NCBI RefSeq assembly: GCF_009659535.1
Contig: NZ_VJZZ01000001.1
Coordinates: forward strand, 573,424 to 637,423
Length of the DNA stretch: 64,000 nucleotides
Source of the DNA: Aggregicoccus sp. 17bor-14
Lineage (GTDB): Bacteria > Myxococcota > Myxococcia > Myxococcales > Myxococcaceae
Direction: 5' to 3'
Within the stretch, counting starts at the first letter, position 1. The number at the start of each line of letters is the position of its first letter. Below, in pieces: positions 5,604 to 36,584 of this stretch. A program made the position numbers and the translations under genes. Under the pieces are notes generated by a model. The model saw only the letters and a list, made by a program, of their open reading frames with translations, was not told the DNA's origin and did not search any database.

Positions 5604-6227
5604 GTGAGCGAGACGGCGGTGGATCAGGGGGCGGCCCGGAAGGTGACGTTGCGCGAGGAGCTGACCGCGCGGCGCAAGGCGATGACGCCAGACGTCATCG
5701 ACGGGCGAGGGTTGAAGGTTCAGTCTCGTTTTTTGGCGTCACCGTACTACCAGAAGGCCCGGACCGTGGCGCTCTACGCGCCCATCCGGGGTGAAGTGCC
5801 CACGCGGGACATCCTGATCGCGGCGCTCGCCGACGAGAAGGTGGTCTGCTACCCGCTCTCGCACGTCCACGGCCGCATCCTCTCGTTCCGGGCGATCACG
5901 TCCGAGAGCGAGCTGGAGCCGGGCCGCCTGGGCGTGCGCGAGCCCAACAGCGCGAGCGAGCTGGTGCCGGTGGACCAGATCGATCTCTTCGTGGTGCCGG
6001 GGCTCGGCTTCACGCGCGACGGCAAGCGCCTGGGGCGCGGGGGCGGCTACTACGACGCCACCCTGCGCGCCGCGAGCGCCCGCAGCCGGCGCGTGGGCCT
6101 GGCCTTCTCGGACCAGGTAGTCAACGTGCTGCCCACCAACCAGGATGACGTGGACATGGACCTGGTGGTGACCGAGTCTGAGTCCCTTCGCGGGCTGTGC
6201 CGCGACTGGGAGTTCGGCGACGCGTGA
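5604..6227 (+). CDS. ygfA: 5-formyltetrahydrofolate cyclo-ligase
   Basis: A 207-residue cytoplasmic enzyme that uses ATP to convert 5-formyl-THF to 5,10-methenyl-THF in one-carbon metabolism. Motifs include the N-terminal LREELTARRKAM helix, YAPIRGEVPT, VVPGLGFTRDGKRLGRGGGYYDATL (the ATP/folate site) and the C-terminal VGLAFSDQVV and DVDMDLVVTE blocks. The GTG at 5604 is chosen because upstream in-frame sequence falls inside the predicted 6S RNA and a GGAG lies 10 bases before it. The 6S-ygfA arrangement is common in proteobacteria. Its stop overlaps the GTG of the next gene. Confidence 0.93.
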   Translation: MSETAVDQGAARKVTLREELTARRKAMTPDVIDGRGLKVQSRFLASPYYQKARTVALYAPIRGEVPTRDILIAALADEKVVCYPLSHVHGRILSFRAITSESELEPGRLGVREPNSASELVPVDQIDLFVVPGLGFTRDGKRLGRGGGYYDATLRAASARSRRVGLAFSDQVVNVLPTNQDDVDMDLVVTESESLRGLCRDWEFGDA

Positions 6228-25410: not shown

Positions 25411-26817
25411 CTATCCAACCGCGGAAGGCGGAAAGATCTTGCCGGGATTGAGCAGCCCGCTCGGGTCCAGCACGCCCTTGAGCCGAGCCTGCAGGCGCAG
25501 CAGCGGCTCGGACTGCTCGAGCGCGAGGTAGCCCCGCTTCGCGTAGCCCACGCCGTGCTCGCCGGTGATGGTGCCCCCCAGCTCCACGGTGAGGCGCAGC
25601 ATGCGCTCGATCGCCTGCTCCACCTTCGCGCGCTCGTGCGGACCGTCGTAGAGGATGTTGGCGTGCAGGTTGCCGTCGCCCGCGTGGCCGTAGCTGGCCA
25701 CGGTGAGGCCCAGCTCCGCGCCCATGGCCTTGTAGCGCTCGATGAACTCCGGGATGCGCGAGCGCGGCACCACGATGTCCTCGGAGACCTTCGCCCGCGC
25801 CAGCGTGCGCAGCGCGGGCGAGATGGCGCGCCGAGCGCCCCACAGCCGCTCGCGCTGCGACTCGTCCTGCGCCACCAGCACCTGCTGGGCGCCCAGGCCC
25901 TCGCAGAGCTCCGCGAGCTGGGCGAGCTCCGCGTAGAGCCCCTCCTCCACGCTGCCGTCCACCTCGACGATGAGCGAGGAGCCCGCGCCCTTCGGGAAGT
26001 CGAAGCCGCGCCCGTCCACCGCGCGCAGCGCCACCTCGTCGATGAGCTCCAGCGTGCGCGGGAGGATGCCCGCGGCGAGCACCGCGGACACCGCGCGCGC
26101 GGCCGCGAGCACCGAGTCGAACACCACGAGCGCCGTCTTCACGTGCCGCGGGAGCGGGATGAGCTGCAGGGTGATCTCGGTGGCCACCCCCAGCGTGCCC
26201 TCGGAGCCGACGAAGAGCCCCACCAGGTCGTAGCCCGCCACGCCCTTGATGGTCTGCCGGCCCACGCGCACGCGCTCGCCGTCCGGCAGCACCCACTCCA
26301 GCCCGATGACGTAGTCGCGCGTGACGCCGTACTTCAGCGCGCGCGGGCCCCCGGCGTTCTCGGCCACGTTGCCGCCCAGCGTGCACCACTCCCAGGAGTT
26401 GGGGTCGGGCGGGTAGAAGAGCCCTTGCGCCTCCACGGCCTTCATCAGGTCGCCCGTCACCACGCCCGGCTCCACCACCGCGGTGAGATCCTCGGGCGAG
26501 ATGCGCAGGATGCGCTTCATGCGCTCGAGGCTCACCGACACCCCGCCGTGCAGCGCGAGGCAGCCGCCGCTCTTGCCGCTGCGCGCGCCCACCGGAGTGA
26601 AGGGCACGCCCGACGCCTGACAGGCGCGAAACACCGCCGAGACCTGGTCGGCCGTCTCCGGGAACACGACGAGATCCGGCGGGAACTCACCGCTGTCCGA
26701 CTCGTCCTTCGCGAAGGCCTGGCGCACCTCGGCGTCGTCGCGCACCTGTCCGGGCGAGAGCACCCCCACGAGCGTGCGCCGCAGCTCGACGAGCCGTGCC
26801 GGGTCCACCTTGCTCAC
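25411..26817 (-). CDS. FAD-linked oxidase, GlcD/D-lactate dehydrogenase type
   Basis: A 468-residue flavoprotein of the PCMH/vanillyl-alcohol-oxidase fold that oxidises a 2-hydroxyacid such as glycolate or D-lactate. FAD-binding blocks are VVFPETADQVSAVFRACQASGVPFTPVGARSGKSGG, LGGNVAENAGGPRALKYGVTRDYVIGLEWVLPDG and GYDLVGLFVGSEGTLGV. The C-terminal cap has SYGHAGDGNLHANIL and GTITGEHGVGYAKRGYL. No glcE or glcF is next to it, so it resembles stand-alone D-lactate or 2-hydroxyglutarate dehydrogenases. The GTG at 26817 overlaps the stop of folE by 4 bp. Confidence 0.9.
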   Translation of the reverse strand: MSKVDPARLVELRRTLVGVLSPGQVRDDAEVRQAFAKDESDSGEFPPDLVVFPETADQVSAVFRACQASGVPFTPVGARSGKSGGCLALHGGVSVSLERMKRILRISPEDLTAVVEPGVVTGDLMKAVEAQGLFYPPDPNSWEWCTLGGNVAENAGGPRALKYGVTRDYVIGLEWVLPDGERVRVGRQTIKGVAGYDLVGLFVGSEGTLGVATEITLQLIPLPRHVKTALVVFDSVLAAARAVSAVLAAGILPRTLELIDEVALRAVDGRGFDFPKGAGSSLIVEVDGSVEEGLYAELAQLAELCEGLGAQQVLVAQDESQRERLWGARRAISPALRTLARAKVSEDIVVPRSRIPEFIERYKAMGAELGLTVASYGHAGDGNLHANILYDGPHERAKVEQAIERMLRLTVELGGTITGEHGVGYAKRGYLALEQSEPLLRLQARLKGVLDPSGLLNPGKIFPPSAVG

Positions 26818-27449
26818 CGCCGCGCTCCGAGCCGCGCCCACAGCTCGCGCCGCAGCGGGCCGTCCTTGCGCAGCGCGCCCTCGTAGGCCTCGGCGTGGGT
26901 GGTGGCGTCGCGCTGCAGGTCTCCGCGGATGCGCAGGCAGGCCTGCTTCGCCTCGATGATGCACGCGGTGGAGGGGCTGCCCAGCACGCGCGCGAGCGAG
27001 CCGGCCACCTCGCGCGCGAGGTCCTCCTGCAGGATGAGGCGGTGCGCGAAGCAGTCCACGAGCGCGGAGAGGCGCCCGAAGCCCACCACGCGCTTGGCCG
27101 GCACGTAGGCCACGTGCGCGCGCCCCTCGAAGGGCAGCAGGTGGTGCGGACACATGGACTGGAAGCGCAGGTCGCTCACCACCACCATCTCGCCCGCGGA
27201 GCCCGGGGGCGCGGGGAAGCTCTCCCCCAGCGCCTCCTCCGGCGTCTGCGCGTAGCCGTCCAGGAATTCACTCGCCCAGGCTTGGGCGACGCGGGTGGGG
27301 GTCTCGGCGAGGTTCGGGTCCTGCATCGGCAGGCCCGCGGCGCGCAGGAAGTCCTCCACGGCGCGCGCCATGGCGGCAGTGTCGGGGCGGGTAGGCGCGG
27401 GGCGCGCAGCGGAGCGGCGGGAGCGGGAGGCGGTCACGGCCCCATGCAT
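26814..27449 (-). CDS. folE: GTP cyclohydrolase I
   Basis: A 211-residue enzyme that converts GTP to 7,8-dihydroneopterin triphosphate for folate or queuosine synthesis. The zinc and active-site block SDLRFQSMCPHHLLPFEGRAHVAYVP holds the first zinc Cys and the HH pair, and the third zinc ligand lies in EAKQACLRIRGDLQRDATTHA. The second Cys/His segment is less canonical than in E. coli, where the text reads HLCMxxRG. The first 28 residues are Arg/Ala-rich, and GTG at 27435 is an alternative start; neither has a good ribosome site. It is coupled to glcD. Confidence 0.88.
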   Translation of the reverse strand: MHGAVTASRSRRSAARPAPTRPDTAAMARAVEDFLRAAGLPMQDPNLAETPTRVAQAWASEFLDGYAQTPEEALGESFPAPPGSAGEMVVVSDLRFQSMCPHHLLPFEGRAHVAYVPAKRVVGFGRLSALVDCFAHRLILQEDLAREVAGSLARVLGSPSTACIIEAKQACLRIRGDLQRDATTHAEAYEGALRKDGPLRRELWARLGARR

Positions 27450-27513: not shown

Positions 27514-27543
27514 TTGACACGCCCCCGGCGCCGTCGCTACGTC
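27514..27543 (+). promoter_or_regulatory. Sigma-70-like promoter of the metal uptake operon
   Basis: A consensus -35 TTGACA (27514-27519) is followed after 18 bases by TACGTC (27538-27543), 20 bp before the small His-rich gene that begins the operon. No A+T-rich Zur-type box is visible around it, so metal control of this promoter is unproven. Confidence 0.5.
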
Positions 27544-27562: not shown

Positions 27563-27991
27563 ATGCGCGCCCTCCTGCCCCGCCTCGGACGTACCGCAGC
27601 GCTGCTGCTGCTGGCGCTCTGGGCCGTGGAGCCGGTGGCCACCTGGGTGCACTACGGGGACCACACCCACCTCTACTGCGCCACGCACCAGACCTTCGAG
27701 GAGGGTCAGCGCTTTGGGCCTGCGCAGGCGGCGTGGACGCCCGCGGCCGAGGCGGTGGCACAGCTCACCCAGGCCCCGCCGGCCGCGCTGGACACCGCGC
27801 CGCGCCTGCACGAGGCCTGCAGCGTGCCCGGCTGCGGGGCGCGGCACCTCGCCGTGCTGGGCGCCCGCGTGGAGCGGGTGCTCGGCCCCTCGCTTCTCTC
27901 CTCGTCGGGCGTTGCGCCGCGCACCGTCCCCGCCCCGCCCCTCTCGGCCCTCGACACCGCTCCCAAGGCCTCGCCTCCGGCACGCGCGTAG
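27563..27991 (+). CDS. Small His/Cys-rich membrane or exported protein of the zinc operon
   Basis: A 142-residue protein. A hydrophobic N-terminal segment (residues 11-26, AALLLLALWAVEPVATW) is followed at once by VHYGDHTHLYCATHQ, with four His and one Cys within 13 residues, and later by CSVPGCGARH. The spacing suggests an extracytoplasmic metal site. The C-terminus is Pro/Ala-rich. It sits 20 bp after a good promoter and is the first gene before the outer-membrane protein and znuACB, so a metal chaperone, sensor or relay is plausible. I do not recognise a named family. Confidence 0.7.
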   Translation: MRALLPRLGRTAALLLLALWAVEPVATWVHYGDHTHLYCATHQTFEEGQRFGPAQAAWTPAAEAVAQLTQAPPAALDTAPRLHEACSVPGCGARHLAVLGARVERVLGPSLLSSSGVAPRTVPAPPLSALDTAPKASPPARA

Positions 27992-28072
27992 CGCGCGTCG
28001 TCGAGTCGCAGTGGTCTTGAGTCGGGCGCACCCGCGTGGCGGGCGGCGTCCGGTGTCCGAGGAGCTCCTTCC

Positions 28073-29461
28073 GTGTTCAGTCAGACGTGCCGGTGCGCCG
28101 GCGTGGTCGCAGCGTTGTGCTGCAGTGTCCCGGCGTGGGCCCAGGCCCAGCAGTCACCTCCCGAGCAGAGCCCCGCGCCGCAGCAGGCGCCTCCCGCAGA
28201 GGCCACCCCCCCCGGGCAGGAGCCGCCGCCGCAGGGTGAGCCGGCCCCCCTGAGCCCCGAGGAGCAGGCGGAGATCAACCAGGCGCTCGGCGCGGACGCC
28301 AAGAGCGGCGACGCGCCAGGGGCGCAGCAGCAGCCGTCGCAGCAGCAGCCCGAGAGTGCAGGCACCCAGGCGCCACCGAGCGTGGGCATCCACGGGCTGG
28401 ACATCAGCCTCATCCTCGATGTGGCCGGCGCGGCGTTCACCAGCGATGCGCCGCTGCAGACGGGAGACCACGATCCCTCGCAGCGCGGCTTCAACCTGCA
28501 GCAGCTGGAGCTCTCCGTCGGCAGCGTGGTGGACCCCTACTTCCGCTTCGACTCCAACATCGTCTTCCACCAGGACGGCGTGGAGATCGAGGAGGCGTAC
28601 GCGACCACGCTCGCGCTGCCTGCCAATCTCCAGGTGCGCGCAGGCCAGTTCCTCACCAAGTTCGGTCGGCTCAACGCGACGCACCCGCACGCCTGGGAGT
28701 TCGTGGACCAGCCCTTCGCCATCGGCCGCGTCTTCGGCGGCGAAGGCAACCGCGGCCTGGGCATCGAGGCGTCCTGGCTCAGCCCCCTGCCCTGGTACCT
28801 CGAGGTGGTGGGCTCGGTGACGGACGCGCACGGCGAGGGCTCCGCGCGCAGCTTCCTCGGGGATGCGGACCACCCGGTGCAGCGCTTCGACGACTTCCAG
28901 TTCACCGGCGCGGTGAAGCAGTTCTTCTCCCTGAGCGACGATCTCTCGCTGCTCTGGGGCCTCTCCGCTGCGAACGGCCCGAACCCCGCGGGTGACCCCA
29001 CCGAGGCGAACCCGGTGGCCTCGCACACGCGCACGCAGGTGTACGGCACGGATCTCTACCTGCGCTACCGCCCGACGACCCAGGGTAACCAGACCACGGT
29101 CACCTGGCAGACCGAGCTGCTCTACCGCCACCGCGACCTCGTCGGCGACTCGCTGCACGACTACGACGGCTACTCGCAGCTGGCCTGGCACTTCAACCGG
29201 CGCTGGGCGGTGGCGGGACGCTACGAGCTGGGCACCGCGGCGAAGAACGCGGCGGGCCAGGTCGTCGAGGACCCGCTGGATCCCGAGTGGACGAAGCTGC
29301 GTCAGCGCATCTCCACCAACGTCACCTACTACCCCACCGAGTTCTCGCGCCTGCGCCTGCAGGGCGCGACCGACCGCGCCGGTTGGCGCGACTCGCCCGA
29401 CTACTCCCTCTTCCTCGCCTTCGAAGTGGTGGTGGGCGCGCACGGCGCCCACACCTTCTGA
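28073..29461 (+). CDS. Outer-membrane beta-barrel protein, probable zinc-linked porin
   Basis: A 462-residue protein with a signal peptide ending at AWAQA, a Pro/Gln-rich low-complexity spacer (residues 25-105) and a long beta-barrel-like region. The barrel has alternating strands, for example LQQLELSVGSVVDPYFRFDSNIVFHQDGVEIEEAY and TWQTELLYRHRDLVG, and ends in F (GAHTF), the outer-membrane insertion signal. It lacks a TonB box and plug domain, so it looks like a porin rather than a TonB receptor. Position just before znuA suggests it lets zinc or manganese across the outer membrane. The GTG has GAGGAG about 9 bases upstream. Confidence 0.78.
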   Translation: MFSQTCRCAGVVAALCCSVPAWAQAQQSPPEQSPAPQQAPPAEATPPGQEPPPQGEPAPLSPEEQAEINQALGADAKSGDAPGAQQQPSQQQPESAGTQAPPSVGIHGLDISLILDVAGAAFTSDAPLQTGDHDPSQRGFNLQQLELSVGSVVDPYFRFDSNIVFHQDGVEIEEAYATTLALPANLQVRAGQFLTKFGRLNATHPHAWEFVDQPFAIGRVFGGEGNRGLGIEASWLSPLPWYLEVVGSVTDAHGEGSARSFLGDADHPVQRFDDFQFTGAVKQFFSLSDDLSLLWGLSAANGPNPAGDPTEANPVASHTRTQVYGTDLYLRYRPTTQGNQTTVTWQTELLYRHRDLVGDSLHDYDGYSQLAWHFNRRWAVAGRYELGTAAKNAAGQVVEDPLDPEWTKLRQRISTNVTYYPTEFSRLRLQGATDRAGWRDSPDYSLFLAFEVVVGAHGAHTF

Positions 29462-29484
29462 CCCCTTTGCCCTGGAGACTCCTC

Positions 29485-30405
29485 ATGAAGTCCCTCTCTC
29501 TTCCGGCCTTCCTGGCCTCCCTGCTGTGCCTCCTCTCCCTCCCTGCGCGCGCCGACCTGAAGGTGGTGGCGACGGTGCCGGACCTCGCCGCGCTCGCCAA
29601 GGCGGTGGGCGGTGACAAGGTCTCGGTGCAGAGCCTCGCGGTCTCCACGCAGGACCCGCACTTCGTGGACGCGCGCCCCAGCCTGATGTTGGATCTCAAC
29701 AAGGCGGACCTGCTGCTCGCGGTGGGGCTGCAGCTGGAGGTGGGCTGGCTCCCGGCGCTGCAGACCGGCGCGCGCAACGAGAAGATCCTCAGCGGTGGCA
29801 CGGGCTTCCTGGACTGCTCGCAGTTCGTGAAGCTGCTCGAGGTGCCGCCGGTGCCGCAGGACCGCAGCCACGGGGACGTGCACCCCGGCGGCAACCCGCA
29901 CTACCTCTACGATCCGCGCGCGGCCGTGCCGGTGGCGCGCGGCATCGCGGCGCGCATGAGCCAGCTGGACCCGAAGAACGCGCAGGCCTTCCAGGCGAAC
30001 CTCGCGCGCTTCACGCAGGAGCTCGAGGCGGCGCGCAAGGGCTGGGAGCAGCGGCTCGCCCCGCTCAAGGGCGCGCCGATCGTCGCCTTCCACAAGAGCC
30101 TCCCCTACCTCGCGGACTGGGTGGGCTTCGACACGGTGGCCTTCCTCGAGCCCAAGCCCGGCATCCCGCCCAACCCCTCGCACGTGGCCGAGGTGCTGGG
30201 GCTCGCGCGCTCGCGCAAGGCGCGGATGCTGGTGCAGGAGGAGTACTACCCCACGAACACCTCGCGCCTGGTCGCCACGAAGATCCCCGCGCCGCTGGTG
30301 GTGTTGCCGGGCGGCACCGACTTCCGCAGCGGACAGACCTACGTGCAGCGCATCGAGGAGCTGGTGAAGCGGCTCGAGCAGGGCCTGCAGGGAAAGGGGA
30401 CCTAG
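29485..30405 (+). CDS. znuA: Zinc/manganese ABC transporter substrate-binding protein
   Basis: A 306-residue periplasmic cluster 9 binding protein starting with a signal peptide (MKSLSLPAFLASLLCLLSLPARA). Metal-ligand positions are seen in STQDPHFVDARPS, GGNPHYLYDP and VAFHKSLPYLADW, giving three conserved His, with a fourth acidic ligand expected near the C-terminus. A short extra motif DRSHGDVHPGG lies just before the second His, in place of the longer His-rich loop of E. coli ZnuA. It captures metal for the permease encoded by the two overlapping genes downstream. Confidence 0.9.
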   Translation: MKSLSLPAFLASLLCLLSLPARADLKVVATVPDLAALAKAVGGDKVSVQSLAVSTQDPHFVDARPSLMLDLNKADLLLAVGLQLEVGWLPALQTGARNEKILSGGTGFLDCSQFVKLLEVPPVPQDRSHGDVHPGGNPHYLYDPRAAVPVARGIAARMSQLDPKNAQAFQANLARFTQELEAARKGWEQRLAPLKGAPIVAFHKSLPYLADWVGFDTVAFLEPKPGIPPNPSHVAEVLGLARSRKARMLVQEEYYPTNTSRLVATKIPAPLVVLPGGTDFRSGQTYVQRIEELVKRLEQGLQGKGT

Positions 30406-30408
30406 CCC

Positions 30409-31194
30409 ATGCTGAGCACCGAAGCACAGGCCCCGCTCGAGGAGACGCCGCTCATCTCCTGTGAGCGGCTGGTGGTGGGCTACCACGGCAAGGCGCTGCT
30501 GCCCGCGTTCGACCTGCACGTGAACCGCGGCTCCTTCGTGGTGGTGGTGGGCCGCAACGGCAGCGGCAAGAGCACCTGGTTCAAGACGCTGCTGGGCATG
30601 CAGGCGCCGGTGTCCGGCGCGGTGGTGAAGGGGCCGGGCCTGCGCAGCGCGTACGTGCCGCAGACCTCGGCCATCGACAGCCTGCTGCCCCTGCGCGCGC
30701 AGGAGGTGGTGCTGTGGGGCCGCCTCAACGGCTGGGGCTTCCTGCGCCCCTTCGCCACGCGCGCGGACCGCGCCGCCACCGAGCGCGCGATCGCCACCGC
30801 GGGGGCGACCGCCTTCGCGCACCGGCCCTACCGCGAGCTGTCCGAGGGACAGAAGCAGCGCATCCTGCTCGCGCGCGTGCTGGCCACCGAGGCGGAGCTG
30901 GTGCTGCTGGACGAGCCCACCGCCGCGATGGACGCGGTGGCCGAGCGCGAGACGATGGAGCGCCTGAGCGGGCTTGCACGCGGGCACCGCATCGGGGTGG
31001 TGGTGGTGAGCCACCAGCTGCGCGTGGCGAGCGAGTACGCCGACACCGTTCTGTTCATGGACCGCGTGGGGCCCACCGTGCTGGTGGGCGACGCGCGCAC
31101 CGTGTTCTGCCACGAGGCCTTCATCCGCCAGTACGGCGACGACTACTGCAACCACCTCAACTCGGGAACCCACCGTGGCCCTGGCTCTCACTGA
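30409..31194 (+). CDS. znuC: Zinc/manganese ABC transporter ATPase
   Basis: A 261-residue ABC ATPase with Walker A GRNGSGKST, Q-loop PQTSAID, signature LSEGQKQ and Walker B LVLLDEP followed by a His switch (VVSHQL). It begins 4 bp after znuA and its last 20 bp overlap the permease gene. It powers the metal uptake system. The assignment to zinc over manganese is based on family resemblance only. Confidence 0.92.
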   Translation: MLSTEAQAPLEETPLISCERLVVGYHGKALLPAFDLHVNRGSFVVVVGRNGSGKSTWFKTLLGMQAPVSGAVVKGPGLRSAYVPQTSAIDSLLPLRAQEVVLWGRLNGWGFLRPFATRADRAATERAIATAGATAFAHRPYRELSEGQKQRILLARVLATEAELVLLDEPTAAMDAVAERETMERLSGLARGHRIGVVVVSHQLRVASEYADTVLFMDRVGPTVLVGDARTVFCHEAFIRQYGDDYCNHLNSGTHRGPGSH

Positions 31195-32047
31195 CGCCCC
31201 CACGCTCGGGCGCTTCCTCGAGGCGTACGAGCTCTTCCACGACGCCATCCTCTGCGCGCTGGTGGCCGGTGCGGTGCTCGGCTTCCTCAGCGTCTACGTG
31301 GTGCTGCGGCGCATGGTGTTCGTCAGCGCCGCGGTGACCCAGTCCGCGGGCCTCGGCGTGGCGCTCGCGTTCTTCGCGGAGATCCACCTGGGGATGCACG
31401 TGCACCCCGTGGTGGGCGCGGCGCTGCTCTCCCTGCTCGCCACGCTGCTCTTGATGATGGACCCCGCGCGGCTGCGGCTCAGCCGCGAGAGCCTGCTGGG
31501 GCTCGCGTACGCGCTCGCCGGCGGCGCCGCCGTGCTGGTGGGCGACCGCATCTCGCAGGAGGCGCACGACATCGAGAACATCCTCTTCGGCACCGGCGTG
31601 GTGGTGGACCGGGTGGACCTGGTGATGGTCGCGTGCGTGGCGGTGGTGACGCTGCTCGTGCACCTGTGGTGGTTTCGCGCCCTCACCTTCTCGTCCTTCG
31701 ATCGCACGGGCGCCGCGGTGCAGGGCCTTCCCGTGCGGATGCTGGACGCGGTGCTGATGATTTCCATCGGCATCACGGTGGGCGTGTCCGCGAAGGCGCT
31801 GGGCGCCCTGCCCGTCTTCGCCTTCTCCACGCTCTCGGCCGTGGCGGCGCTGGTGCTGGACCTGCGCCTGCCCTGGACCTTCGCGGTGGCCACCCTGGCC
31901 GGCGCGCTCGCGGGCGTGGGCGGCTACTTCTTCGCCTACTTCTTCGAGTTCCCGGTCGGTGGCTCGCAGACGGTGTTCGCAGGCGCGCTGGTGCTGCTCG
32001 CGCTGGGCGTGCGCGCGCTCACCGGACTGAGGGGGGCGCCGCGCTAG
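31175..32047 (+). CDS. znuB: Zinc/manganese ABC transporter permease
   Basis: A 290-residue inner-membrane protein of the ABC-3 permease family with about eight hydrophobic segments. The coupling region includes EAHDIENILFGTGVVVD and the KALGALPVFAFSTLSAVAALVL helix. The GTG at 31175 lies inside the end of znuC (20-bp overlap), so the two are translationally linked. It ends one base before the convergent isochorismatase-like gene. Confidence 0.92.
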   Translation: MALALTDAPTLGRFLEAYELFHDAILCALVAGAVLGFLSVYVVLRRMVFVSAAVTQSAGLGVALAFFAEIHLGMHVHPVVGAALLSLLATLLLMMDPARLRLSRESLLGLAYALAGGAAVLVGDRISQEAHDIENILFGTGVVVDRVDLVMVACVAVVTLLVHLWWFRALTFSSFDRTGAAVQGLPVRMLDAVLMISIGITVGVSAKALGALPVFAFSTLSAVAALVLDLRLPWTFAVATLAGALAGVGGYFFAYFFEFPVGGSQTVFAGALVLLALGVRALTGLRGAPR

Positions 32048-34541: not shown

Positions 34542-34931
34542 GGGGTCAGCCTCGCACAGTCGAGAAAGGACGGGAAAGCCCGTCGGCCAGGGGGCCCCCC
34601 ACACCGCACGCCGCCCCTCGGGCCTCCACTGCGCACAACGAGGGGCGAGGCGCCGCTGTTTCCGACGGAGCGGCCCAGAGCTGGGGAGATGTCATGCGCA
34701 TGGCATTGTGACCTGGGAGCTCCGTGCTGCACAGGAGTCGCACCTGCCCCAGATCCAACCCCCCGTGAGAGTCCAGGGGCACGCAGGCTCGCTCCCAGGA
34801 CGCCCGGAACGGCACAACGGCCACTGACATACCGGCGTGCCGCAGCAGCGTCGGGCACGCGGTCCGGCCCTGCGCCCCGCGTGCGGCGCGGCCTATAGAC
34901 GACCCTCCCCCCGAGCGCAAGCAGGGCCGCC
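34542..34931. other. 390-bp gap without a gene, with two hairpins
   Basis: No convincing gene lies between the TPR start and the end of the thiamine-diphosphate enzyme gene; the longest reading frame here (from 34858 leftward) looks like GC background. Two inverted repeats stand out: CGCCCCTCG with CGAGGGGCG (34612-34647), and GCACGCGG with CCGCGTGC (34855-34884), the second likely acting as a terminator for the enzyme gene. The TPR promoter probably lies here. Confidence 0.6.
34855..34884 (-). terminator. Probable terminator of the thiamine-diphosphate enzyme gene
   Basis: An 8-bp perfect inverted repeat (GCACGCGG and CCGCGTGC) with a 14-nt loop, 47 bp after the stop codon. No T-run is seen, so efficiency is uncertain. 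Confidence 0.4.
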
Positions 34932-36584
34932 CTAGACGGCGTAGCCCATGGCGCCGGCCTTCACGGGGGCCTCCGGGTCCAGCGCCACGTTGACGCAGGC
35001 CACGGTGCCGCTGGCGAGCGCGCGCTCGAGCGCCGGGCGGATCTGCGCAGGCTCGGTCACGTGCTCGCCGTGGCCGCCCAGCGCCTCCACCACGCGATCG
35101 TAGCGGGTGGGTGCGAGCAGGGTCCCGGGGGACTTCTCCTCGCCGAACATGCCCACCTGCGGGATGCGGATCTGCCCCCAGGCTGCGTCGTTGCCCACCA
35201 CGCAGACCATCGGGAGCATGAAGCGCAGCGCCGTGTCGAAGTCCATGCCGTTGAGGCCGAAGGAGCCATCGCCCTGCACCACCCAGCAGGTGCGCTCCGG
35301 GTGCAGCACCTTGCTCGCGATGGCAAAGGGGGCGCCCACCCCGAGGCAGCCCAGGGGCCCCGGGTCCAGCCAGCGCCCCGGGCGCCTGAGCTCGATGACC
35401 TTCGCCGCCATGGCCACCCAGTTGCCGCCGTCCGCGACGAACACCGGGTCCTGCCCGGCCGCATTCGCGACGACCGAGAGCTCGCGCGCGAGCCGGTAGT
35501 GGTGGATGGGCACGCTGTCGCTGCGGGTCCACTCCTCGAGCGCCTGCGCACGCTTGCGCTCGCTCTGGCGCAAGGCGGCGAGGAAGGGCTCGCGCGAGGT
35601 GGCGGGAGCGGCGCGCGCGAAGGCCTCCAGCGCGCTGCGGCTGTCGGCCACGATGCCCACGTCCACGGCGCGGTTGCGCCCCACCTCCACCGGGTCCACG
35701 TCCACCTGCACGATGCGCGAGGCCGCGCCGAAGGTGGGCTCGGCGCCGTAGTTGAGGCGGAAGTCGAAGGGCGTGCCGATGACGAAGACGAGGTCCGCGC
35801 CGCTCAGCGCCTCCTTGCGCGTGTGCTGGAAGAAGAGCGGATGGTCCGGCGGCATGCAGCCGCGCCCCGCGCCGTTGAGGAACACGGGCAGCTGGGCGCG
35901 CTCGCAGAAGGCGCGCAGCGGCTCCCAGGCCTCGTCCCAGTACACCGAGGAGCCGGCGATGACGGCGGGGCGCTCGGCCGCGGCGAGCAGCGCCATCGCC
36001 TCGTCCACCTTGCGCGGGTCCGGCGGCAGGCGCGCGTCCGTGCGGTAGCGGCGCGGCAGGGGCGTGCTCTCCTCGTCCACCGCGTTGCAGAGCACGTCCC
36101 AGGCGAGCTCGAGGAACACGGGGCCCGGGCGCCCGGAGAGCGCCACCCGGAAGGCCTTGGCGAGGTACGCGGGCACGAGCTCCGGGGTGGGCACGCGGTC
36201 CGACCACTTGGAGATGCGGTGGAAGAGGTCCACCTGCTCCATCTCCTGCAGCGAGCCGCGGCTCTGGTTGAAGATGGGCGCGGCTCCCCCGAGCAGGAGA
36301 AGCGGGGAGCTTGCCGCGTGGGCGTTGGCCACCCCGGTGAGCGCGTCGGTGACGCCGGGCCCGGCCGTCACCACCGCCACCCCCACCCCGCGGGTGATGC
36401 GCGCGTAGGCGTCCGCCGCGTGCGCGGCCGCCTGCTCGTGCCGGGTGTCGATGACCTGGATGCCCTCCTCCACGCAGCCGGCGTAGATGGGGGCCACGTG
36501 CAGGCCCGAGAGGGTGAAGATGTGCCGGACGCCCTCTGCCTTCAGCATCCGCGCGACGAGCTGCCCACCGCTGACCATCGCCAT
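34932..36584 (-). CDS. Thiamine-diphosphate enzyme, ILVBL/HACL2-like
   Basis: A 550-residue enzyme with the three-domain POX/acetolactate-synthase fold. The catalytic Glu is in IDTRHEQAAAHAADA. The ThDP/Mg motif is QGDGSFGLNGMDFDTALRF..VVGNDAAWGQIR. The N-terminal block (GGQLVARMLKAEGVRHIFTLSGLHVAPIY.. VVTAGPGVTDALTGVANAHAASSPLLLLGGAA..QSRGSLQEMEQVDLFH) resembles human ILVBL (2-hydroxyacyl-CoA lyase 2) more than IlvB. This suggests cleavage of 2-hydroxyacyl-CoA in alpha-oxidation rather than branched-chain amino-acid synthesis, since no ilvN or ilvC is near. The specific activity is inferred from resemblance. Confidence 0.82.
   Translation of the reverse strand: MAMVSGGQLVARMLKAEGVRHIFTLSGLHVAPIYAGCVEEGIQVIDTRHEQAAAHAADAYARITRGVGVAVVTAGPGVTDALTGVANAHAASSPLLLLGGAAPIFNQSRGSLQEMEQVDLFHRISKWSDRVPTPELVPAYLAKAFRVALSGRPGPVFLELAWDVLCNAVDEESTPLPRRYRTDARLPPDPRKVDEAMALLAAAERPAVIAGSSVYWDEAWEPLRAFCERAQLPVFLNGAGRGCMPPDHPLFFQHTRKEALSGADLVFVIGTPFDFRLNYGAEPTFGAASRIVQVDVDPVEVGRNRAVDVGIVADSRSALEAFARAAPATSREPFLAALRQSERKRAQALEEWTRSDSVPIHHYRLARELSVVANAAGQDPVFVADGGNWVAMAAKVIELRRPGRWLDPGPLGCLGVGAPFAIASKVLHPERTCWVVQGDGSFGLNGMDFDTALRFMLPMVCVVGNDAAWGQIRIPQVGMFGEEKSPGTLLAPTRYDRVVEALGGHGEHVTEPAQIRPALERALASGTVACVNVALDPEAPVKAGAMGYAV

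Follow-up and report, generated by a model that had tools for sequence, protein, structure and literature searches.

The window analyzed here is a 64,000-nucleotide (nt) stretch of the genome of Aggregicoccus sp. 17bor-14 (Myxococcaceae; contig NZ_VJZZ01000001.1, positions 573,424 to 637,423), and our subject is a metal-uptake operon that it harbors, above all the small first gene of that operon, which we call the leader. Five genes follow one another on the plus strand and are read as a single operon: the leader, an open reading frame (ORF) of 142 amino acids (27563..27991); omp, which encodes a porin-like outer-membrane barrel of 462 amino acids without a TonB plug (28073..29461, GTG start, 82 nt 3′ of the leader stop); znuA, for the periplasmic metal-binding protein of an ATP-binding cassette (ABC) importer (29485..30405; PF01297, E-value 3.3e-49); a znuC-type ATPase gene (30409..31194; PF00005, E-value 9.1e-24); and a znuB-type ABC-3 permease gene with a GTG start that overlaps the ATPase gene (31175..32047; PF00950, E-value 1.4e-38). 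The last three domains all score over the curated Pfam cut-offs and identify a Znu-type metal ABC importer. A preliminary description of the locus had read it as a zinc-type uptake operon with a plug-less β-barrel before the znu genes, headed by a small exported or membrane protein that carries a His/Cys cluster suited to metal binding and belongs to no named family; these points are borne out by the domains, by the gene order kept in relatives and by the results below. In this account we argue that the first gene is probably a cis-acting leader that senses zinc as a nascent chain, through translation arrest, and thereby controls the uptake genes behind it.

The barrel resembles a porin. Its best Pfam line, the BBP2 porin family, stays below threshold (22.6 vs 26.2 bits), and its AlphaFold2 model (mean predicted local distance difference test, pLDDT, 68.5) has about 16 strands in the barrel part, with the porins OprO/OprP as best structural matches (Z 27). 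A TonB-dependent receptor, with a Plug domain and a 22-strand barrel, was considered and ruled out on the strand number, on these porin matches and on the lack of any Plug match to omp in Pfam. No zinc-specific outer-membrane channel appears in its list of Protein Data Bank matches, an absence that we do not count as evidence.

The leader protein has one hydrophobic stretch (about residues 8–29, 27584..27649; best 15-residue mean hydropathy 2.03, from residue 12), a putative signal peptide or membrane anchor that lies directly before the metal motif VHYGDHTHLYCATH at residues 29–42. Metal site 1, HYGDHTHLYCATHQTFEE, spans residues 30–47 (27650..27703), and metal site 2, HEAC, residues 83–86 (27809..27820). 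These are followed by a spacer (residues 87–129, 27821..27949) of fixed length and near-random sequence, whose RNA is rich in C, and by the C-terminal motif LDTAPKASPP (27950..27979), the proposed arrest sequence, in which the two prolines are residues 138–139 and after which only ARA and the stop codon remain. In its AlphaFold2 model (mean pLDDT 66), the leader forms a helix at residues 4–33 and then a small β-hairpin at metal site 1; residues 75–114 are mostly below a pLDDT of 50, and the spacer is largely predicted to be disordered.

This protein is a member of a conserved family that has no Pfam or NCBIfam model. The window leader has no Pfam match at an E-value of 1 or below and no credible family in NCBIfam or PHROGs; the only NCBIfam line, tyramine oxidase subunit B (14.4 vs 362 bits), was rejected as a chance match. 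Likewise, 32 leaders compared with Pfam gave no credible match to any family, and none of the 32 matched DUF2946 (PF11162) at an E-value of 1 or below. Homologues are nevertheless widespread: used alone as query, the protein had 12 matches, spread over 10 of the 40 relative genomes searched (its own included); a profile built from these 12 first-round leaders had matches in 71 of 96 genomes across the family, and one built from 32 leaders in 106 of 195 Myxococcota genomes, covering 41 of 90 genera; named homologues come from Myxococcus, Corallococcus, Pyxidicoccus, Archangium, Hyalangium and Citreicoccus. Conservation falls into three blocks, namely the hydrophobic stretch with metal site 1, metal site 2, and the extreme C-terminus with APKxSPP plus a few residues. 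Besides the first Met, the residues invariant in the alignment of 12 are W20, H30, H36, C39, H42, E46, H83, C86, L130, A133, P134, K135, S137, P138 and P139, and in the larger set H30, H36, C39, H42 and C86 are invariant in all 32. Metal site 2 reads HxxC or HxHC across the family, and a hydrophobic stretch ahead of the metal motif occurs in 80 of 80 leaders. The homologue comparison that the preliminary description had called for came out in its favor: in 12 of 12 first-round homologues the His/Cys residues are invariant or almost invariant, and the linkage to znuA is kept.

Outside the metal sites, the extreme C-terminus is the best-conserved part. Each of the 12 first-round leaders terminates in APK[AS]SPP and a few further residues, and the consensus of the family is [AS]PKxSPP, the divergent member L093 reading SPKTSPP. 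The motif is present in 80 of 80 collected leaders, 64 of which had been collected by a pattern of APKxSPP plus H..C..H (one that L093 escapes), so that their motif counts are true by construction. A profile made from the N-terminus only, which stops three residues past metal site 2 and is blind to the C-terminus, was therefore informative: it found matches in 85 of the 145 genomes searched in the order, and among the 40 of its loci that were examined, APKxSPP ends all 30 close and all 10 more distant (L154–L163) leaders. Five more leaders found by the full profile (L164–L168) end likewise. How the leaders were selected does not account for the conserved C-terminus. A scan of raw DNA from 21 genomes for APKxSPP gave 57 places; of the 30 loci inspected, seven were leaders, and in the others the motif was internal or lay in a short or doubtful frame.

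Equally constant is the distance between the second metal site and the motif. Counted from the Cys of metal site 2 to the motif Lys in the 80 leaders, it is 48 residues in 61, 49 in 12, 47 in four, 46 in two and 50 in one. Among 39 leaders less than 50% identical over spacer and motif, the standard deviation of the spacer length is 0.80, as against 3.50 for the linker between the two metal sites. Its sequence is free: in 22 non-redundant leaders, all with a spacing of 48, the entropy is 2.2–3.4 bits at positions −47 to −6, the Leu at −5 is kept in 95%, and A, P, K, S, P and P are each at 100%. A constant length with a free sequence is what one expects if the distance from the active center of the ribosome to a point outside the tunnel or the membrane matters. 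Within the motif, the third codon position varies for Ala, Ser and both Pro, in the first 12 leaders as well as in 44 leaders of the window subgroup (those heading porin-like omp operons with an assigned omp ribosome-binding site). As these codons drift synonymously, selection acts on the peptide, and we reject the idea that the C-terminal motif is a mere RNA element as its sole cause. For the same reason an element complementary to the Shine-Dalgarno (SD) sequence within the KASPP codons was rejected; pairing of a more upstream CUC codon is kept only as a candidate (see below).

Taken as an arrest leader, the protein might work as follows; that it arrests, that zinc is the ligand, which way the response runs, and whether translation or transcription termination is the level of control are points that we infer. 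The hydrophobic N-terminus, to judge by its hydropathy, would engage the Sec translocon during translation. When the ribosome reaches APKxSPP, metal site 2 lies 48 residues back, a distance about as long as the ribosome tunnel and the membrane channel together; both metal sites would thus have just arrived at the periplasmic side. At low zinc the ribosome would pause at SPP, and the pause would prevent the 3′ RNA of the leader from masking the omp ribosome-binding site, or keep Rho off the C-rich transcript, or both, so that omp, znuA, znuC and znuB are made. With ample zinc, binding at the two His/Cys sites would fold the emerging chain, and this pull or fold would end the pause; the leader would then be completed and discarded, and the uptake genes would fall silent.

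A system of this kind is known for copper. CruR (Bp2923, DUF2946) of Bordetella pertussis is a copper-sensing arrest leader with a CXXC motif and a C-terminal RAPP, in which the two functional motifs are 45 residues apart, a distance conserved within 1–2 residues, and in which the insertion of five more residues impaired regulation; its control is proposed to be Rho-dependent transcription termination (PMC9426467). CruR has been shown to arrest in vitro, its two prolines then occupying the P and A sites, and the tested arrest motifs are RAPP and RGPP, RSPP being reported as arrest-permissive (PMC12992588, PMC10987492). The leader studied here shares with CruR its place as first gene of a metal-uptake operon, a putative export signal, metal residues, a proline motif a few residues before the stop codon, and a near-constant spacing (45 residues in CruR; 47 intervening residues in 61 of 80 leaders here, range 45–49), and we propose the same sign of response, in which metal ends arrest and turns the uptake genes off. 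It differs in its setting and sequence: copper and CXXC in CruR, but a zinc setting here, with a His-rich sequence, HxxC/HxHC and two metal sites; RAPP there, but APKxSPP here; and in the window a porin with znuABC rather than a TonB receptor. DUF2946 (PF11162) itself was found in one of 117 Myxococcota genomes, and not in that of the window, and this single hit (L174 in G183) lies in a frame-disturbed stretch that we do not take as a real member.

CutF of Rhodobacter capsulatus offers a second comparison. CutF-like proteins have fewer than 150 residues, a proline motif within the last 15, a hydrophobic N-terminus and a same-strand downstream gene (PMC9973294). The window leader passes the corresponding filters, being shorter than 150 amino acids, with PP within its last 15 residues and a same-strand gene within 1,000 nt; since it does so while lacking DUF2946, CXXC and RAPP, it would be a related type of leader that is separate in sequence. 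Two differences are that copper raises the downstream product in CutF, and that those of the 29 CutF-like sequence clusters that are described sit by copper genes or, for His-only motifs, by HupE/UreJ, whereas zinc genes stand here; the words “zinc”, “znu” and “myxococc” do not occur in the main text of the CutF survey (PMC9973294). The RAPP-type arrest peptides ApdA, ApdP and ApcA, and also SecM, are likewise small exported proteins with a C-terminal arrest core that ends in PP, although the core here is K-x-S-P-P without an Arg before the S, and zinc genes rather than Sec/YidC would be regulated. On the best reading of these comparisons, the leader is kin in kind, though not in sequence, to the metal-sensing nascent leaders CruR and CutF, arrest being the inferred part of the likeness.

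The RNA between the leader and omp carries features that may belong to the control. A hairpin of about eight pairs (28022..28053) is predicted just 5′ of the omp SD sequence CGAGGAG (28058..28064), whose position is kept in relatives; it is predicted in the relatives as well, and 22 aligned sequences contain compensatory changes such as G-C/A-U, C-G/U-A and C-G/G-C. Its 3′ foot ends 1–6 nt before the SD in 38 of 43 sequences, so the hairpin itself does not pair with the SD, and simple sequestration by it was rejected. A candidate for such pairing lies in the leader: CCTCG (27949..27953) holds the CTC codon of Leu130 (the Leu at −5), and this codon with its preceding base, mostly C, reads CCUCG, the complement of CGAGG in the omp SD. 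The codon is CTC in 44 of 44 subgroup leaders, as against 245 of their 663 other Leu codons (37%), a comparison of related sequences rather than an independent-sample test. When the leader RNA up to a ribosome stalled at SPP is removed, the computed unpaired state of the SD rises from a mean of 0.17 to 0.31; 25 of 43 sequences gain more than 0.1 and one loses. (The set is 43 rather than 44 for hairpin and pairing because L033, for which a wrong SD had been picked, is left out of these two only, while L006, in which no SD was found, is left out of these and of the codon set.) The CutF survey describes a stem-loop near the next ribosome-binding site; here there are the covarying hairpin and a predicted pairing of the SD with the leader 3′ end, both uneven across relatives. 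Hairpin, SD pairing and CTC codon together lend support to an RNA layer of control and would suit more than one mechanism. L165 has two copies of a repeat, gggcggttcgcgaaccgccc, in the roughly 100 nt that follow its leader stop.

An alternative that is a variant of arrest-based control and compatible with it is transcription attenuation, in which, on the model put forward for CruR, Rho would end transcription between leader and omp and SD masking would be incidental. The RNA over the last 147 nt of the leaders is rich in C and poor in G: C exceeds G there in 61 of 64 leaders, and C/G is above 1.3 in 52 of 64, as against 2 of 64 for the preceding 250 nt. The covarying hairpin could pause RNA polymerase, and CruR provides a precedent. 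Part of this C-richness, however, stems from Pro, Ala, Ser and Leu codons, and stretches of omp in the window have an equally high C/G (1.68); moreover, an invariant CTC codon complementary to the SD favors translational control in the window subgroup. We regard attenuation as a possibility of some weight, but one that falls short of being the expected outcome.

What the leaders stand in front of bears on the signal they would read. We surveyed 78 unique leader loci with at least 1.4 kilobases (kb) of 3′ DNA (81 rows, with the repeats L009/L021, L011/L019 and L012/L023; L091 and L165 have too little 3′ DNA and were left out), and classified the downstream genes by similarity queries, ten of which were checked against Pfam; two lipoproteins and two barrels among the queries have no Pfam family. 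The first downstream gene is a porin-like omp in 55 of 78, and znuA comes next in all 32 of these with more than 2.5 kb; another porin followed by znuA is found in one, and znuC, at the head of a znuCBA set, in three. A TonB-dependent receptor, or ExbB and a receptor, comes first behind six leaders; a ribosomal protein L33 without cysteines, then a CobW GTPase and DUF1826, behind five (L083, L084, L085, L088 and L019); an exported lipoprotein with a His tail behind six, which are second leader loci lying some 10 kb from the first; a distant CobW behind one (L086); and a small membrane protein that looks MerC-like and is not a recognised zinc gene behind one (L023, leader stop at 6187 on the minus strand). 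The housekeeping L33 of the window genome, in contrast to the leader-linked ones, has its cysteines. According to a review of Zur regulons, the usual gene set for zinc starvation comprises znuABC, TonB receptors, ExbB/D, COG0523/CobW and paralogues of ribosomal proteins, rpmG among them; these are the targets found here, but in those regulons Zur acts as a DNA-binding repressor, whereas here a common leader peptide marks the operons (PMC6103462). To judge by these gene contents, nearly all operons behind the leaders appear to be zinc-starvation operons, of differing kinds, with the leader as their constant first gene.

These contexts speak against the function first proposed for the leader, that of a periplasmic zinc relay or chaperone, a finished exported protein that would pass zinc from the porin to ZnuA and so complete an outer-to-inner membrane route. 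Such a relay would account for a leader that is exported or anchored, for its conserved His/Cys residues and for its constant nearness to zinc-uptake genes in loci of the znu type; it leaves unexplained the invariant APKxSPP end, the spacer of fixed length, random sequence and predicted disorder, and the leaders that head L33-CobW-DUF1826 operons, whose products are not envelope transporters. Since the conserved end, the disordered spacer of constant length and the transporter-less L33 operons occur together, and since zinc shortage is what all contexts have in common, including genes that move no metal across membranes, they point to a cis-acting regulator rather than a carrier, and we hold a relay to be improbable. 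The same mechanism with another metal (manganese, copper or nickel) is likewise unlikely: the znu-type importer family also includes manganese transporters, and the first NCBIfam match of ZnuA is a manganese-type protein, though far below its cut-off (76.5 vs 400 bits), while the best scores of ATPase and permease are with the zinc models AztA/AztB (both also below cut-off), and zinc starvation is indicated by the contexts with Cys-less L33, CobW GTPase and TonB/ExbB. With all NCBIfam zinc and manganese models below cut-off, it is the gene contexts that argue for an importer of the zinc type.

The promoter, too, is consistent with control after initiation by the arrest leader. In the window it lies at 27514..27543 (TTGACA, 27514–27519; TACGTC, 27538–27543), about 20 nt 5′ of the leader start, which has no SD. 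Most of 19 subgroup upstream regions share cTTGAC[AT]-N17/18-TAGAGC or close variants, again about 20 nt before a leader start without an SD, L026 being a clear exception. No shared dyad or Zur box was seen around the promoter in these 19 regions, which were inspected by eye and not with a motif program. A near-consensus, constitutive-looking promoter without an evident shared operator suggests, and fits with, control after initiation. A Zur-regulated operon, with the first protein as a short-lived zinc-binding export product without a regulatory role, carries little probability for us: the genome has two FUR-family proteins and the gene contexts equal those of known Zur regulons, but this account lacks a shared dyad near the conserved promoter and does not explain the C-terminal motif or the fixed spacing.

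On the other side of the leader promoter, folE (26814..27449, minus strand; PF01227, E-value 8.6e-48) encodes GTP cyclohydrolase I, a zinc-dependent enzyme, and is divergent in the window and in relatives, so that its promoter lies in the same intergenic region; we claim no part for it in the proposed mechanism. The order folE (leftward), then leader, omp, znuA and, after an interval, znuC and znuB (rightward) is conserved among relatives. In L013, L014, L016–L018, L020 and L022 this interval holds a gene for a lipoprotein-like protein of 267–299 amino acids with CH[GN]GHCH, which has no Pfam family; the window has few bases there (30402–30409), and a search of its genome, made without a positive control, gave no match. 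In many relatives (L078–L082, L016) the second leader is divergent, encoded on the opposite strand some 10 kb from the first, and the gene behind it specifies a lipoprotein that has C[EA]HLQ[EK]GP and a tail rich in His; at that place the window has only about 330 bases (34604–34932) and the locus is absent. In L159 (1464–4049, by Pfam) and L093 (by similarity), the leader-headed TonB-dependent receptor begins with a TonB C-terminal domain before the Plug, and would thus be a receptor fused to its own TonB part. L088 has, besides L33-CobW-DUF1826, an ORF 2.4 kb downstream of the leader that is presumably ribosomal protein S14. The locus L037, from a record titled Comamonas sp. KCTC 72670, is nearly identical to Myxococcus ones, and the genome is probably mislabelled.

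Several observations weigh against a zinc-sensing arrest leader. We found no experiment on any family member, and APKxSPP, though close to the RAPP/RGPP motif for which arrest is proven, is not identical with it: the Arg position of that motif is taken by A/S/Q/G/N/L/T. Eight of the 78 loci, namely six with the His-tailed lipoprotein, L086 and L023, have no recognised zinc gene directly downstream. The two FUR-family proteins count here as well, as they leave room for ordinary Zur control, and the −10 hexamer of the window, TACGTC, is a weaker match than the TAGAGC of its relatives. As to the RNA, the stability of the hairpin beyond that of shuffled sequences is modest (mean z −1.0 over 43 sequences, 18 of them below −1); the predicted partner that masks the SD differs between sequences, and many use others than CCUCG; three relatives have CGCGGAG rather than CGAGGAG, which breaks one pair; and CCUCG is some 20 nt 5′ of the codon where stalling is proposed, which puts it at the rim of the ribosome or outside it. 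Finally, the Leu(−5) codon is mixed in the other operon types, which lack the CCUCG element, and is CTG in five of five L33-type leaders.

Beyond the window, we lean towards a broader view, on which Myxococcota possess phylum-wide nascent exported leaders that sense zinc and carry a new arrest sequence, [AS]PKxSPP, and on which these leaders would govern a whole zinc-starvation regulon (uptake ABC importers, porins, TonB receptors, zinc-free L33 and CobW GTPase) one operon at a time and in cis, alongside Zur or in its place. Among open-licence papers in PubMed Central we found none on a zinc-sensing nascent leader. The authors of the CruR work note that neither copper nor zinc has a known riboswitch, a gap that, in their proposal, nascent proteins fill for copper (PMC9426467). 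If our reading is right, the leader family would fill it for zinc, the short list of known arrest motifs would gain one more, and leader peptides that detect zinc outside the cytoplasm, beyond the reach of Zur, could run a bacterial zinc regulon.

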